Assembly: GCA_012270065.1 (NCBI GenBank)
Contig: JAAXJB010000047.1
Location: 1-64,000, forward strand
Source of the DNA: Rubripirellula sp.
GTDB taxonomy: Bacteria > Planctomycetota > Planctomycetia > Pirellulales > Pirellulaceae
Direction: 5' to 3'
DNA: 64,000 bases
Positions 6,496 to 29,288 of the stretch are shown in pieces. Under the pieces are notes generated by a model, which worked only from the letters and a program-made list of their open reading frames with translations, was not told the DNA's origin and ran no database searches. Position numbers and translations under genes: made by a program. The first letter of the stretch is position 1. The number at the start of each line of letters is the position of its first letter.

Positions 6496-9384
6496 TCATC
6501 GGTGGTGGTGAACGAAGGCTGGCAGCAGTTCTTTCGGCAGACTGGACAACATCTTTCCCATCCCCCTTTGATGTGCGGTTACCACGATGATCAGATTGAG
6601 TTCGGGTAACATCAGAAGAAACTGGCCACCAGCGCCGCGGCCGGATTTGCAATCGTAGGTCCGTTCTCCGATTTTCATGTCATGCCGCCACCAGAAATAA
6701 CCATAAGATGTACCTTGGGGGTTGGTGTGGATTCGATCGGTGGCTTGCTTCACATATTCGGCAGGAATCAGTTGTTCACCCTGCCATTTACCAGCGTTAC
6801 TGACAAGCATTCCCCACTTGAGCATGTCACGGGATCGCATGCTGCTTCCAGCGGCTGATTTCGGTAGCCCACTGACATCGTTTTGCCATGCAAAATTGGT
6901 GATTCCAAGTTTCGCCAGCAGTTCTTCCTTGATAAATTTCCGCGCTGAACCCGGCACAACAGTCTCCAGAACCTGCATGGCGATCGAAGGATCAGAGCTT
7001 TGATATTTGAAACCCGGTTCGTCAGATGAAATGGGATCGCTGTATTGCAGGTAGGCCTGAATCTGACCCTGTCCCATCATCAGTTTCGTGTTTTTTCTGA
7101 GGTCATTGGCTTTGGCCTGATCAAGCCGAATTCCAGACTTCATGTTCAGCGCTTGTGCAAGAGTGATCTGTTCTGCCCCGGCAATGATTTTGGATTGATC
7201 AATGTCCTTCAGAAAATTGATGACGGGTTGATTCAAATCTGACATCTTCAGGTACCCCAGCTGGATCGCTCTTCCGATCGCCAGTGCCGTGTAAGACTTG
7301 GTAATCGACATCTGATAATGGGGATAATTGATTCTGCCCCGGCGATAATAGGATTCAAAGAGTAGTCTGCCGTGTTGATGAATCAGCAGACTGTCAATTT
7401 CACCGTGCTTGCCTTCATGTATGTCAGCGGCGAATGCGAGAACACGCTGAGTTGAAGGTTCAGCAGTGTTCAGGCTGCCAGTTGCGATACCATCCATACG
7501 ATCTTCTGGCGATGTCGTGATGTAAGGTGTTTTCAGGTCAGGTATGTTTTTTTCCAGCGCGTAGGATATATCTTCTGCGCTCAGGTCCGTAATTTCGGGA
7601 GCCAGTCCTGCTTCATGATCAGCCGGTGGTTCCTTTGATTTTTGGCCTGTTTTGTCGCGAGGGAGCGAAGCATTCCTTTTCCCAACCTGCAACATTGCGG
7701 GCCGTTGCCAGTCTTTTGGTGTGTAGCCCTCGGGAGCCACAGGTTTGCTCACCTCGACGACCTCATCTTCAGGATCGAACAATGGCCAGGTGTCGCTGCG
7801 AAAGGGTGATGCGGGCAAACCTGCGCGGTTGTAAAGCAGATTTCGTCGAGATGGATTCATTGCCCACGCGTAGCGAACGGCAACGGGGGTTGCGATTTTG
7901 CTCGAGGAAACGATCACCTGATCGCCATCAATAACAGCGTCTGCCCAGTGCCATACCTGATCGTTACCGGCAATGGCAAAGGAATCCAGTTGTGTATCAC
8001 CGGAACCTGTCAGTTGATTGGCAGAAACCAGATCACTGCCACCGGTTTCGAAGCGGAGGATGATTTTGTTGCCATCGATTTTTTGATTTTGAAAGCGTGG
8101 CCCAGAACCAACCACGTCTCTCGAGTAAACATTTTCCAATGCGTAGAGTGCATGCCGGATACCAATCGGTCGTTTGTTTTTCGGGTGCAGCTGAATCGCG
8201 TCACCGGTGTCAATGGAAACCACAAGTCCCACATTGGATAATTGTTCGCTTGCCAAACGCATGGCTTCACGATTGACCGCCCACGGGGCTTTCAGTCCTT
8301 CGACGGGAGCAGTTTGTGCCGGGTTCCAGCTGGGGAGTTGTGTCAGAATGAATGGGAAATCATCAGCGACATGCCCCCCAGACAACTCGTGCCACGAAGA
8401 ACGGTAGTAAGTGATCAGTTTCTTGATCTGTTCGGAATAGTGTTCTGCTTGTGGAACATTCTTTGAATTCCTTTCGCCCTGGTACCATATTGCACCCCGG
8501 ATTCCATAAGGTCGAATCGGGTGAATCATTGCGTTGAAGATATGGCTGGGGTACTGGTGGCCCAGATTCGCAGGCTTGGTGATGAAAGGTGGTTGCAGTG
8601 GTTTCCACTGGTTTTTCATCGTTTCACCGGCGGCGATCTTCTGCTGATAGAGAATGAGCTCCTGTCTGTAGGTTTGGAGTGCCTCATCACGATCAAATCG
8701 CCTGGAATTCCTGTCCAGTTGTGCAATGTGCATTCTGGTGCGCTTGTCATTGCGTTGGATTTCGGCAGGCATCCAGCCCTCGATCGGTGTACCAGCGTAG
8801 GCTTGGACAATGATGCCGACAGGAACGTCGAGTGTTTGCTGAAGCGTCTTGCCAAAGTGGTACGAAACTGCGGACGTAGTGGCAGCAGTCTCGGGGGTGC
8901 AGGGAACCCATTCCGAGAGGCGGTCACGCGATTCCTCCAGCGGCTGGTGCCAGTGTTCGCGGGATGATTTGAAAATCCTGAAATTGGGAATGTTGGCATG
9001 TTTCGCTTCCGCGTCGCTATCGAAGCAGTTACCCAACGCCCAGCCCATGTTGGACTGTCCAGCGCAAAGCCATACTTCTCCGATGGCCACATCCATCAGG
9101 GAAACAGAATTCTTTCCACGGATGTGAAGTGAATGACCGGTGGAATGTGCTGGTGTTTCCAGAAAGATCTGCCATCGGCCCTCTTCGTTTGCTGCGGTTG
9201 TCACTTCGCTACCCCAGCTTGAGGTAACGGAGATCCTCTCTTCGGGATCAGCAAATCCCCAGATTGCATTGACCGATTTCTGTTGCAGCACCATGTGATC
9301 GCTGAAAAGATTTGGCAGTCTGATATCTGCCTTGGCAATCACATGAGGTAAGACAAGCAGAACAAGCGCAGTGAGTATTCGCAT
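6496..9384 (-). CDS. Sialate O-acetylesterase / class C beta-lactamase-like fusion
   Basis: A two-domain secreted hydrolase. The N-terminal half is a sialate O-acetylesterase/SASA family domain: ADIRLPNLFSDHMVLQQ at its start, then CAGQSNM with the nucleophile Ser (S120 counting from ATG 9411), IWYQGERN, and a C-terminal beta domain ending near MNPSRRNLLYNRAGLPASPF. After a charged, Pro-rich linker, the second half is a serine hydrolase of the beta-lactamase/D-alanyl-D-alanine peptidase superfamily with S702-I-T-K705 as the SxxK motif (same numbering) and GYFWWRHD near the end. ATG 9384 starts a clean signal peptide (MRILTALVLLVLPHVIAKA); ATG 9411 adds nine residues. The fusion suggests de-esterification of an acetylated glycan coupled to a second ester or amide cleavage (inference). 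It converges on the DUF1501 gene. Confidence 0.9.
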   Translation of the reverse strand: MRILTALVLLVLPHVIAKADIRLPNLFSDHMVLQQKSVNAIWGFADPEERISVTSSWGSEVTTAANEEGRWQIFLETPAHSTGHSLHIRGKNSVSLMDVAIGEVWLCAGQSNMGWALGNCFDSDAEAKHANIPNFRIFKSSREHWHQPLEESRDRLSEWVPCTPETAATTSAVSYHFGKTLQQTLDVPVGIIVQAYAGTPIEGWMPAEIQRNDKRTRMHIAQLDRNSRRFDRDEALQTYRQELILYQQKIAAGETMKNQWKPLQPPFITKPANLGHQYPSHIFNAMIHPIRPYGIRGAIWYQGERNSKNVPQAEHYSEQIKKLITYYRSSWHELSGGHVADDFPFILTQLPSWNPAQTAPVEGLKAPWAVNREAMRLASEQLSNVGLVVSIDTGDAIQLHPKNKRPIGIRHALYALENVYSRDVVGSGPRFQNQKIDGNKIILRFETGGSDLVSANQLTGSGDTQLDSFAIAGNDQVWHWADAVIDGDQVIVSSSKIATPVAVRYAWAMNPSRRNLLYNRAGLPASPFRSDTWPLFDPEDEVVEVSKPVAPEGYTPKDWQRPAMLQVGKRNASLPRDKTGQKSKEPPADHEAGLAPEITDLSAEDISYALEKNIPDLKTPYITTSPEDRMDGIATGSLNTAEPSTQRVLAFAADIHEGKHGEIDSLLIHQHGRLLFESYYRRGRINYPHYQMSITKSYTALAIGRAIQLGYLKMSDLNQPVINFLKDIDQSKIIAGAEQITLAQALNMKSGIRLDQAKANDLRKNTKLMMGQGQIQAYLQYSDPISSDEPGFKYQSSDPSIAMQVLETVVPGSARKFIKEELLAKLGITNFAWQNDVSGLPKSAAGSSMRSRDMLKWGMLVSNAGKWQGEQLIPAEYVKQATDRIHTNPQGTSYGYFWWRHDMKIGERTYDCKSGRGAGGQFLLMLPELNLIIVVTAHQRGMGKMLSSLPKELLPAFVHHHR

Positions 9385-9698
9385 GACAGGGAGTGACACA
9401 ATTGGGACCATGGAAAAAAGTGCTCAACTGCCATTTTAGCAGCGACCCGAAGCTTTCACGTTTTGATAAGAGTGGTGTTGTGACTGATCGGGCCTGCTGA
9501 GCTTCAAGGCATGCAGTGGTTGCTGCCTGATATCCGACGGGAAAATCGCAGGCGACGCCCGTTTTGCAGACGTCTGGTTCACATTGTAGGGATTGTGCGG
9601 CAACTCGTTTGGCAAAAATCGTTCAAAGTCTCTCTGTGATGCTGGATACGTCCTAGAGTTCAACAGTTTCTGGTCTTTGGGTAGTCGGAGAGTTTTGC
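9385..9698. other. Divergent intergenic region
   Basis: Spacer between the divergent esterase fusion and the Tyr/Gly-rich secreted protein. No convincing gene, repeat or RNA. The only clear signal is a GGAG ribosome site at 9687-9690 for the plus-strand gene. Confidence 0.4.
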
Positions 9699-27236: not shown

Positions 27237-28610
27237 TTAGCCGATATTGACTACTTGCTGCGGCGACTGTTCCAGTGCTTCCATGGCAATGGGCAGAAAC
27301 TCCGGGCTGTCATGTAGCAACTCTTCCAGATGTTGTCTGGGATTCTCACACCAGCGCGAATAACCCTTGGTAAAAAGACCAGCAAATTCGTAATCACATG
27401 CTTTCAATGCTTTGATGAAGCTACGGTCGATCGAGGGCAGAACATAATCAGGCACCTTATCAACAGTGGTGAGTGCATGGACACCGGCGAAGACCACGTG
27501 CCTTACATCGTCCTCTACCATATTGGCGGCTGCATCAATCGTGGAACCATCAACCCGATTGATGGTTGTCAGTGCACACATCGCTTTGGCACGTATTTCG
27601 TCATCACGATGATCAACCAGCATTCGAATCTGATCAGCGACTGAATCACTGATTTCATTGCCTTGGCCAGATGCCAGACGTTCGGTAGCACTGATTGCGT
27701 GAAGGGTGGTTGATCTTTCTGTTGATCGGAGTTTTTCCAGTAAAGCAGATTGCTGATCCTGTGTCAGTTCCTGCTCGCTGTTTGCATGCCGGATAGCAAT
27801 GATCTGCGTTGAGGCAGAGGGATGCCTCATCAATTCCCACCATTGGTCTTGGGATTGATCCAGCCGGTTTTGCTTTGCCTGTGGTTCAAAGAATGTATCG
27901 TTGGTCTTCGACAGGTATTTCAGTGAACGTTTCATTGGACGTTTGACTTCAGCATGCAGGTCCTGGATCCAATCGGGTGCTGATTGCTGCCGGGTCCATG
28001 CTGCAAGCGCATTGGCATAAGCAAGCGACTGAATGTTCAAAAATGGCGGAGGTGCAACTTGCCATTGTGTTGAATCCCAGAAGCTGGGTGCTTTTTTTAT
28101 CAACAGGAGATTACTGCGGAGAACTCCCAGCCCCGTTCCGATCACCGCCAGCTCTACCAGTTCGGGAAAATGGGGTTGAGCGAATGTGGTTTGATAAAGC
28201 AGATCATTCACGACCCCATGAATGAGCGTCGCAATTACCAGAGGTGGGTCTTCCTCCAGTGTCATGTTCAGATTGATCACCCGTTGTTTCGCATCGTAGT
28301 TGCCCGGCAGACCGCCGAGTTCGGCACAGGAGCCGCCGCCTCAGCCACCGCCACTGCCGCAATCAGCCGGTTTCTGGGGATCCAGTTGCACTTGGATTTC
28401 TTGTGAATCATGTGAAAGGTGTTGCCCGAGAAAATCGATGATTTGCCTGTTGTTCATGGCTTGTGAATGAAACAGATCAAGCAGTGATTCACGATTGAGC
28501 ACGGGTAAATGAAAACGCTCGAAGCCAAGGCACTCGGCCAGTTGCTGCAGATGGAATTCAATTCTCGATTTTTCACCAACATTCACGTTAGGCTTGGCTG
28601 TGAAGAGCAT
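27237..28610 (-). CDS. Candidate selenoprotein: one reading frame interrupted by a single TGA; degenerate HEXXH-type protein with HEAT-like tail
   Basis: Two open segments in the same frame (28610-28344 and 28340-27237) are separated only by TGA at 28343-28341. Read through, they give 457 residues. The start is ATG 28610 with AGGAG ten bases upstream. Residues 1-80 look like an ordinary folded domain (LLFTAKPNVNVGEK-type start, FHLQQLAECLGFERF). Residues 84-95 are C-G-S-G-G-G-(TGA)-G-G-G-S-C. The next part resembles a conserved bacterial family in which VATLAHELGH is a HEXXH zinc motif; here it is VIATLIHGVVND, with H131-G-V-V-N135, so the zinc site is lost. The second half has helical repeats like HEAT (LVDHRDDEIRAKAMCALTTI). 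With the downstream hairpin, selenocysteine at 90 is plausible; a nonsense mutation of a Gly or Cys codon is the alternative. The frame is intact and protein-like on both sides. Confidence 0.75.
28303..28319 (-). promoter_or_regulatory. Candidate bacterial SECIS hairpin
   Basis: In the transcript, CUCGGC (28319-28314) pairs with GCCGGG (28308-28303): six base pairs including one U-G, closing the five-base loop GGUCU (28313-28309). The loop starts 27 nt after the UGA at 28343-28341. Known bacterial SECIS elements have a short stem and a G- or GU-containing apical loop about 16-37 nt after UGA; E. coli fdhF has AGGUCU between GC pairs. A competing small hairpin GCCG-AACU-CGGC overlaps it, and the local GC-rich glycine codons make chance stems likely, so this is suggestive only. 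Confidence 0.5.
28341..28343 (-). other. In-frame TGA, candidate selenocysteine codon
   Basis: TGA at codon 90 of the 27237-28610 gene, flanked by three glycine codons on each side and by cysteines at 84 and 95. No other stop interrupts the 457-codon frame. Confidence 0.6.
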
Positions 28611-29288
28611 GGTGGAACGTCTCCTGGCTGGTGACGAAGCAATGAAGCGGGCGGGTATCAAGGCAAGCGTACAGTAATGGCCGGAATGAAACAGCGCGGA
28701 TTCTCGTTCAAGTTCACTGGTGCGGATAAATGCTGGTTGTTGTCCGCTCAGACACGTTGGAAGGGTTTGGTCGACCCAAATATCGGGTTGTACTCAGATT
28801 CCGAGTTAGGACTGGCCTATCTTGAGCAAGGCCAGATGGGTGTCAGTGGCTTTGCCATCTGAATCCGTCGAGGTAAGCAGTATTTGGGTGAGTTTGGCTG
28901 CATTTAAAATGTGCAGCAAAGTCAAAAACTGGGATGAAACGTTCGTTGGGACATTGCCACCGCAGCAATTGTTGGAGTAGTTCGGACTGACTGGGAGAGG
29001 GGCTCACTGTTGTCAAAAATCGATGCGGAGCTTGGTAAGTTTGGTGGTCAATCCATGAATGCTTGCATACGGAGTGTGCGGAACCCCTGCTTGTTACTGT
29101 TTGAGATTAGTCGCATTTTCACACAGGATAGGGGTTCATCTGAACCGCTGCTCGTCGTGGGTACCACGGGCAATCTTTGGAAATGCGGCTGAATTGACAC
29201 GTACGAGCGGATAGTTAGGGTTGGCAATTTGCCAGCATATCGAACATACTCTCAACTCTCCCAGGATTCCTCCCAAATAGAGTTGAAG
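28611..29288. other. Divergent intergenic region
   Basis: About 680 bases between the candidate selenoprotein gene and the peptide transporter. It contains the AGGAG ribosome site (28621-28625, minus strand). Two roughly 60-codon plus-strand frames (28677-28862 and 29010-29192) exist but lack ribosome sites and family resemblance; I do not call them. No RNA gene or repeat seen. Confidence 0.4.

Follow-up and report, generated by a model that had tools for sequence, protein, structure and literature searches.

In mammalian thioredoxin reductase, selenocysteine (Sec) and a partner cysteine are carried in the GCUG motif of a C-terminal arm, which is mobile and contains glycine. In bacterial selenoproteins, including FdhF of E. 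coli, the SECIS hairpin lies in the coding region right after the UGA, and selA, selB, selC and selD are found in the genome, as is the case for the locus described here. A 2026 inventory counts 119 prokaryotic selenoprotein families (PMC13188914). Peptidase-like selenoprotein candidates, a trypsin-like protease and MucD, are mentioned in the available portion of the GOS survey (PMC2398784), and the available portion of a further study describes selenoproteins in a Rhodopirellula and in one other planctomycete (PMC4807772).

We analyzed a stretch of 64,000 nucleotides (the window), for which an earlier note had proposed a candidate selenoprotein at 27237-28610 without stating its strand. These coordinates were correct, and the gene lies on the minus strand; the plus strand of the same interval contains many stops. 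As the note had claimed, the single internal stop of the 457-codon frame is TGA at codon 90 (28343-28341), within the motif CGSGGG-(TGA)-GGGSC. The same codon becomes U120 when translation is begun 30 codons further upstream. The ribosome site that the note had judged good could be recognized as AGGAG, 10 nt before the ATG, and was retained in four of the six nearest orthologues (L012, L015, L016, and L035), with AAGAGG in its place in the other two (L013 and L014). At the level of the gene, the following features were assigned:

27237-28610, minus strand: selenoprotein gene of 457 codons, with ATG at 28610-28608 and stop TAA at 27239-27237
28621-28625, minus strand: probable ribosome-binding site AGGAG, recognized from the sequence
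28341-28343, minus strand: UGA codon 90, very probably read as selenocysteine

When the ORFs of 10 loci were read by eye, no conserved partner was seen in the gene neighborhood. In one relative (L039), two overlapping ORFs are present upstream of the selenoprotein gene (8416-9623), and the first-transcribed of them resembles an ECF sigma factor on a by-eye reading. Positions 28611-29228 of the window resemble this stretch of L039 only at the two edges, one of 105 nt (74% alike) and one of 78 nt (96% alike), and an ECF-sigma-like ORF is no longer present there.

An initial search of 60 genomes, including that of the window itself, returned 12 full-length members, of which 9 had one TGA and 3 had none. 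A profile search of 241 Pirellulaceae genomes, with family membership taken from the record titles, then yielded 51 full-length members, all of which were aligned; weak partial matches to other proteins, also returned by the orthologue searches, were left out of the counts. Aligned column 90 was occupied by TGA in 38 of the 51 orthologues and by a Cys codon (TGC or TGT) in the remaining 13, and by nothing else. Because TGA and Cys share the same column in this way, the TGA is not explained by chance or by a sequencing error. The 38 TGA genes represent 37 genomes, because one genome carries two copies; in this genome (G005, with copies L012 and L035), both copies have TGA, and a mixed assembly is possible. 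Sec forms reached down to 45% protein identity. Orthologues occurred in Rhodopirellula, Rubripirellula, Mariniblastus, and other Pirellulaceae or Planctomycetaceae, and in a phylum-wide sample of 392 genomes, a strong match (E up to 1e-25) was obtained in 1 genome only, that of the window. TGA served as the terminal stop in 15 of the 38 TGA-form genes, and a second internal TGA was found in none of them, which argues that it is not a general sense codon. The Cys forms showed GGGCCGG[GS]SC in 10 of 13 cases, and in 3 an extra Cys was located further upstream.

A degenerate DNA pattern of the motif matched the window's own genome solely at the selenoprotein gene, with 0 matches for the backward control. 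Among seven other genomes, the pattern had a second match elsewhere in G171, and the backward control had a match in G181. The second match in G171, a genome with the Sec form, is located on contig C130 (54564-54592), outside the selenoprotein family.

Purifying selection acts on the codons that follow the TGA. Their dN/dS was 0.07 to 0.13 in the eight close pairs, out of nine, for which it could be computed. Between the window and its six nearest relatives, it was 0.07 to 0.11 in four comparisons and saturated in two, as were most wider pairs. In a midpoint-rooted tree of the 51 proteins, in which position 90 of the Sec forms was masked as X, the Cys forms constituted a single clade (support, 100/100) nested among the Sec forms. 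One Sec/Cys change is therefore sufficient to explain the pattern.

Downstream of the UGA, a hairpin was identified that starts 21 nt after this codon:

28303-28319, minus strand: bacterial SECIS hairpin, with a 6-bp stem CUCGGC/GCCGGG, the loop GGUCU at 28313-28309, and a gap of 27 nt between UGA and loop

The spacing of 27 nt, the 5-nt loop beginning with GG, the 6-bp stem, and the energy of −8.5 kcal/mol all fit the published bacterial SECIS model as given in the accessible part of PMC13188914. However, across the 38 TGA genes, the bare 17-nt hairpin reached −7.5 kcal/mol in 25. The six-pair stem was complete in 34 of the TGA genes and incomplete in 4, versus complete in 1 of the 13 Cys genes. 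All 38 TGA genes had a loop of the form RGUYU (GGUCU in 23, AGUUU in 14, and AGUCU in 1), and the loop GGUCU was present in one Cys gene, a different one from that with the complete stem. In addition, codon 10 after the UGA ended in T in all 38 TGA genes (GGT in 23 and AGT in 15), with GGT making up 269 of 1,067 Gly codons elsewhere in these genes; the invariant T therefore points to a constraint beyond a protein-level explanation. Covariation was assessed on 35 distinct TGA sequences with 500 shuffles and slid controls. The score was 0.251 versus a shuffled mean of 0.139, none of the 500 shuffles scored as high, and the best slid version reached 0.127. Double changes were seen in three of the six stem pairs (as high in 4 of 500 shuffles), and 98.1% of the pair cells showed standard pairing. 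An Rfam search of the region gave chance-level matches and no SECIS match. In Rhodopirellula maiorica SM1, the Cys form (L044, the same gene as L061) retains all pairs of a SECIS-like stem, whose loop reads GGACU rather than GGUCU; this stem is apparently left over from a Sec ancestor.

In the genome of the window, selB and selA belong, together with a selD fusion, to a series of overlapping genes, and a tRNA-Sec with the anticodon TCA (UCA in the RNA) scoring 70.8 bits is also present. The selD part forms the C-terminal portion of a 715-residue protein (L116, 176-2323, contig C73), the N-terminal half of which, read by eye, resembles NADH dehydrogenase or FAD oxidoreductase. Across the 37 TGA-form genomes, selB over the cut-off was present in 32, tRNA-Sec (counted at 62 bits or more) in 33, both in 30, and at least one of them in 35. 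Neither was found in G186 and G192, which are 80% and 71% complete, respectively, and five TGA genomes showed one of the two only; among these five, G009 had two partial selB matches below the cut-off. In the 13 Cys-form genomes, selB never exceeded the cut-off, and no tRNA-Sec reached 62 bits. For 39 genomes, the match limits were tighter (E of 1e-52 and 1e-10), so that the counts there leave out weaker selB or tRNA-Sec matches. One Cys-form genome (G032) contained an 86-nt match to RF01852 of 49.8 bits, above the gathering score of 47. It was left out of the count and read as another long-arm tRNA, because matches of 46 to 53 bits and the same length accompany a better tRNA-Sec elsewhere. 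Since the 13 Cys forms make up one clade, the association between Cys and the machinery represents one event, not 13. The earlier note had held that the stop was unlikely to have arisen through chance decay. It had named orthologues with Cys or TGA at codon 90 and a genome with selA, selB, selC, and selD as support for its proposal, and Gly at this codon in orthologues as evidence against it. All 51 orthologues had TGA or Cys at this one column, Gly was found in 0 of 51, and all four sel genes are present.

These results make it nearly certain, as judged from sequence comparison, that codon 90, TGA, specifies selenocysteine. The hairpin after the UGA would be bound by SelB carrying Sec-tRNA (anticodon UCA), the ribosome would insert Sec, and the product would be a full-length protein of 457 residues. 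That Sec decoding goes together with the domain plan described below is also highly probable. This plan comprises the following features:

27876-28610, minus strand: N-terminal minigluzincin-like domain, residues 1-245, assigned from predicted structure and fold comparison
28314-28373, minus strand: residues 80-99, forming a flexible Gly/Sec/Cys loop that is inserted in comparison with distant homologues
28361-28359 and 28328-28326, minus strand: loop residues Cys84 and Cys95, flanking Sec90
28191-28247, minus strand: helix of residues 122-140, predicted counterpart of the HExxH helix, with the motif lost (HGVVN here)
27261-27875, minus strand: C-terminal HEAT/ARM-like solenoid, residues 246-450, assigned from profile and fold
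27396-27398, minus strand: Cys405, candidate resolving Cys

A full-length model, built from 19 sequences with Cys replacing Sec, had a mean pLDDT of 79.9, with values of <50 for residues 80-99, which hold position 90. Folded alone, the N-terminal domain had a mean pLDDT of 77.9. Its best match in VIA was abylysin (4jiu) with a Z of 9.3 and an rmsd of 2.5 over 99 residues, followed by jannalysin (8.4), SPRTN (8.3), selecase (8.3), BlaR1 (6.7), BepA (5.8), and IrrE (5.1, in a row standing among those of ACE2 and ERAP2); best Z scores between 7 and 8 are common even for unrelated models, so that values of 8 to 9 stand only moderately above background. Minigluzincins and SPRTN accounted for all seven rows over Z 7.5. 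SPRTN, BlaR1, BepA, and IrrE are metallopeptidases. Foldseek gave no match to the N-terminal domain with an E below 0.001, and its low-scoring rows (a mycobacterial regulator and nuclear receptors) were disregarded. The matches to PDB profiles were weak, with best E values of 0.29 (A4) and 0.017 (A5), and were taken to be due to chance. Given the Foldseek E values and the moderate Z scores, the fold assignment leans on the agreement among the top rows and on homologues that have HExxH.

Distant planctomycete homologues were aligned as a set of 9 picked from 12 fetched (alignment A5; L118, L119, and L122 were left out). They share the N-terminal domain (227 columns; hhalign probability, 99.7%; E, 5.5e-27) and have no counterpart of the Gly/Sec loop, and HEAT repeats were found in two of the three scanned. 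Among the 12 fetched, 3 were short, without the length for a solenoid, and 3 retain HExxH. The latter, L121, L125, and L127 (HEIGH, HEIAH, and HELSH, respectively), may be active minigluzincins; L127 also has HEAT repeats. Within the selenoprotein family itself, catalytic Glu at position 132 was present in 0 of 51 and HExxH absent from all 51 members, and Asp136, Pro149, and Glu150 were invariant in all 51. Most of the 31 invariant residues are located outside the loop, within the zincin-like and HEAT parts.

For the C-terminal part, profile scans of 19 members at E up to 0.01 detected Adaptin_N in 12 of them and HEAT_2 in 7; the window protein itself remained below the Pfam cut-off for a HEAT/ARM repeat. 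Fold comparison likewise indicated HEAT/ARM, with Z up to 14.5, although helical repeats easily reach high Z values. No enzyme domain at curated cut-off was found in sequence-profile scans of the window protein and the 19 members. No thioredoxin family appeared in the profile scans, and the motif is UGGGSC, compared with CxxU or UxxC in thioredoxin-fold selenoproteins. The fold lists show no thioredoxin fold, although such a fold may escape these lists. M3_fam_3 of NCBIfam, which matched 5 of the 19 members (best E, 5.3e-4), was judged to be chance or a likeness at the level of the fold; the M3 peptidases belong to the gluzincins. From the predicted model, we conclude that what appears to be a catalytically dead minigluzincin-like domain gained a Gly-rich Sec loop: a former peptidase domain of this type would have lost catalytic Glu and HExxH and acquired the loop between two strands of its sheet.

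For the function of the loop, we tentatively favor that of a mobile redox arm, at somewhat less than an even chance, with the partner held by the HEAT/ARM solenoid. The selenolate would attack a disulfide, a peroxide, or another oxidized or electrophilic group on the partner, and the resulting selenenylsulfide would be resolved by a Cys, which would be Cys95 in most members and possibly the invariant Cys405. This reading draws on the established chemistry of Sec, on the conservation of Cys residues, and on the flexibility of the Gly loop. Of the 38 Sec forms, 36 have Cys95 and 26 have a loop Cys upstream of position 90; all 13 Cys forms contain both. Neither Cys is thus obligatory, which weakens the suggestion of the earlier note that Cys84 and Cys95 could form selenenyl-sulfide or metal contacts with the Sec. 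Two of the 38 Sec forms (L103 and L107) have no loop Cys at all, so that a selenenylsulfide internal to the loop is not general. Apart from position 90, no Cys but Cys405 is conserved in all 51 members, which makes Cys405 a candidate alternative resolving partner. Overall, the protein could be a pseudopeptidase armed with Sec, in which a dead HExxH domain bears the Sec glycine arm, the solenoid presents or recognizes protein substrates, and Cys405 or Cys95 resolves; we regard this as plausible, if not quite an even bet. If true, it would represent a class of redox enzymes or sensors outside the thioredoxin fold. The redox arm is weakened by the two Sec forms without loop Cys, by the disorder of the loop in the model, and by the lack of conserved neighbors that would point to a substrate.

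The Sec loop might alternatively bind a metal or soft electrophile (such as Zn, Cu, Hg, As, or an Fe-S cluster) through Sec90, Cys95, and the upstream Cys, and the protein might act as a metal sensor, chaperone, or sink. Up to three S/Se ligands inside 12 residues, three loop Cys residues in all 13 Cys forms, and a host domain resembling zinc peptidases are consistent with such a site. However, the upstream Cys is missing in 12 of the 38 Sec forms and both loop Cys residues in 2, and a long glycine run is, in general, poorly suited to pre-ordering a metal site, which leaves this alternative rather unlikely. Unlikely, too, is a role mainly as a scaffold, in which partners would be assembled on the solenoid and on the dead zincin-like domain and Sec90 would do no more than sense oxidation and switch the assembly. 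The location of most invariant residues outside the loop, together with the lack of any enzyme domain reaching a curated cut-off by sequence, would suit a scaffold, but a pure sensor should seldom need Sec over Cys, yet Sec has been kept in 38 of 51 members; this last argument is general and not decisive.

Two further readings dispense with Sec altogether. That the TGA is a true stop in a decaying or split gene, yielding an 89-residue protein and perhaps a downstream one from GTG 28280 (an open frame of 347 codons), agrees with how standard gene calling would take the TGA, but is extremely improbable against the restriction of one column to TGA or Cys in all 51 members, the covarying SECIS, whose stem is incomplete in 12 of the 13 Cys genes, the purifying selection that acts before as well as after the TGA, the single unbroken frame of the Cys orthologues, and the presence of the Sec machinery. 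Hardly credible either is reading of the TGA as Trp, Gly, or Cys through suppression or a local code change without selenium, for although relatives without clear Sec machinery have Cys there, so that Cys works at position 90, TGA also ends 15 of the 38 genes and never recurs internally, and neither the SECIS nor the association with selB and tRNA-Sec would be accounted for. Gene decay, a split gene, and a code change were accordingly rejected on the conserved TGA/Cys column, SECIS, Sec machinery, and purifying selection.

With TGA read as Sec, the decoding appears to be of the known bacterial kind, and the family and its scaffold appear to be new. The 119-family inventory, in its accessible part, has no entry with this motif and domain plan, nor the scaffold, and word searches of its main text found no planctomycete and no HEAT (PMC13188914). 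The same held for word searches of the available parts of deep-Sep (PMC12013277), PMC5029168, and PMC2398784. NCBIfam gave no match to the window protein at E up to 1 and, for the 19 members, weak scattered matches in a few, none of them to a selenoprotein-named model. As far as the accessible part of the inventory and NCBIfam extend, this agrees with the statement in the earlier note that no selenoprotein family with this fold had been described. In the open-licence literature, no title on this selenoprotein family was found in planctomycete, Pirellulaceae, Rhodopirellula, HEAT repeat, or metallopeptidase contexts. The gene may be among the candidates in supplementary table S9 of PMC4807772, a study accessible in part. 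The locus would add a selenoprotein family from the Pirellulaceae, a group little examined for selenoproteins, and standard gene calling would truncate such genes at the UGA. A natural Sec form exists in Planctomycetes bacterium K23_9 (CP036526), and natural Cys forms exist in Rhodopirellula rubra CECT 8075, Rhodopirellula maiorica SM1, and Rubripirellula obstinata CECT 8602. These named strains therefore offer a direct test of the contribution of Sec on a scaffold that appears unlike thioredoxin.

Compared with the systems described above, the window hairpin has the same apical loop, GGUCU, as that of E. coli fdhF, with a distance between UGA and loop of 27 nt versus 18 nt in fdhF; the FdhF protein is unrelated to the window protein. 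The trypsin-like protease and MucD candidates of the GOS survey, compared by their description in its available part (PMC2398784), also have Sec in a protease-related protein, but belong to serine-protease folds. Like the arm of mammalian thioredoxin reductase, the window loop combines Sec and a partner Cys on a mobile, Gly-containing segment. In contrast to that arm, the Sec of the window protein is in an internal loop with the spacing UGGGSC, no flavin domain was seen, and the two proteins are unrelated. The fold of residues ∼40 to 180 appears to be shared with the minigluzincins (abylysin, 4jiu; jannalysin, 4jix; and selecase, 4qhf-4qhj) and with SPRTN, BlaR1, BepA, and IrrE, at VIA Z scores of 9.3 to 5.1, the highest of them moderately above background. 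Unlike the minigluzincins, the window family is devoid of HExxH and the catalytic Glu and has instead an inserted Gly/Sec loop and a HEAT/ARM domain.
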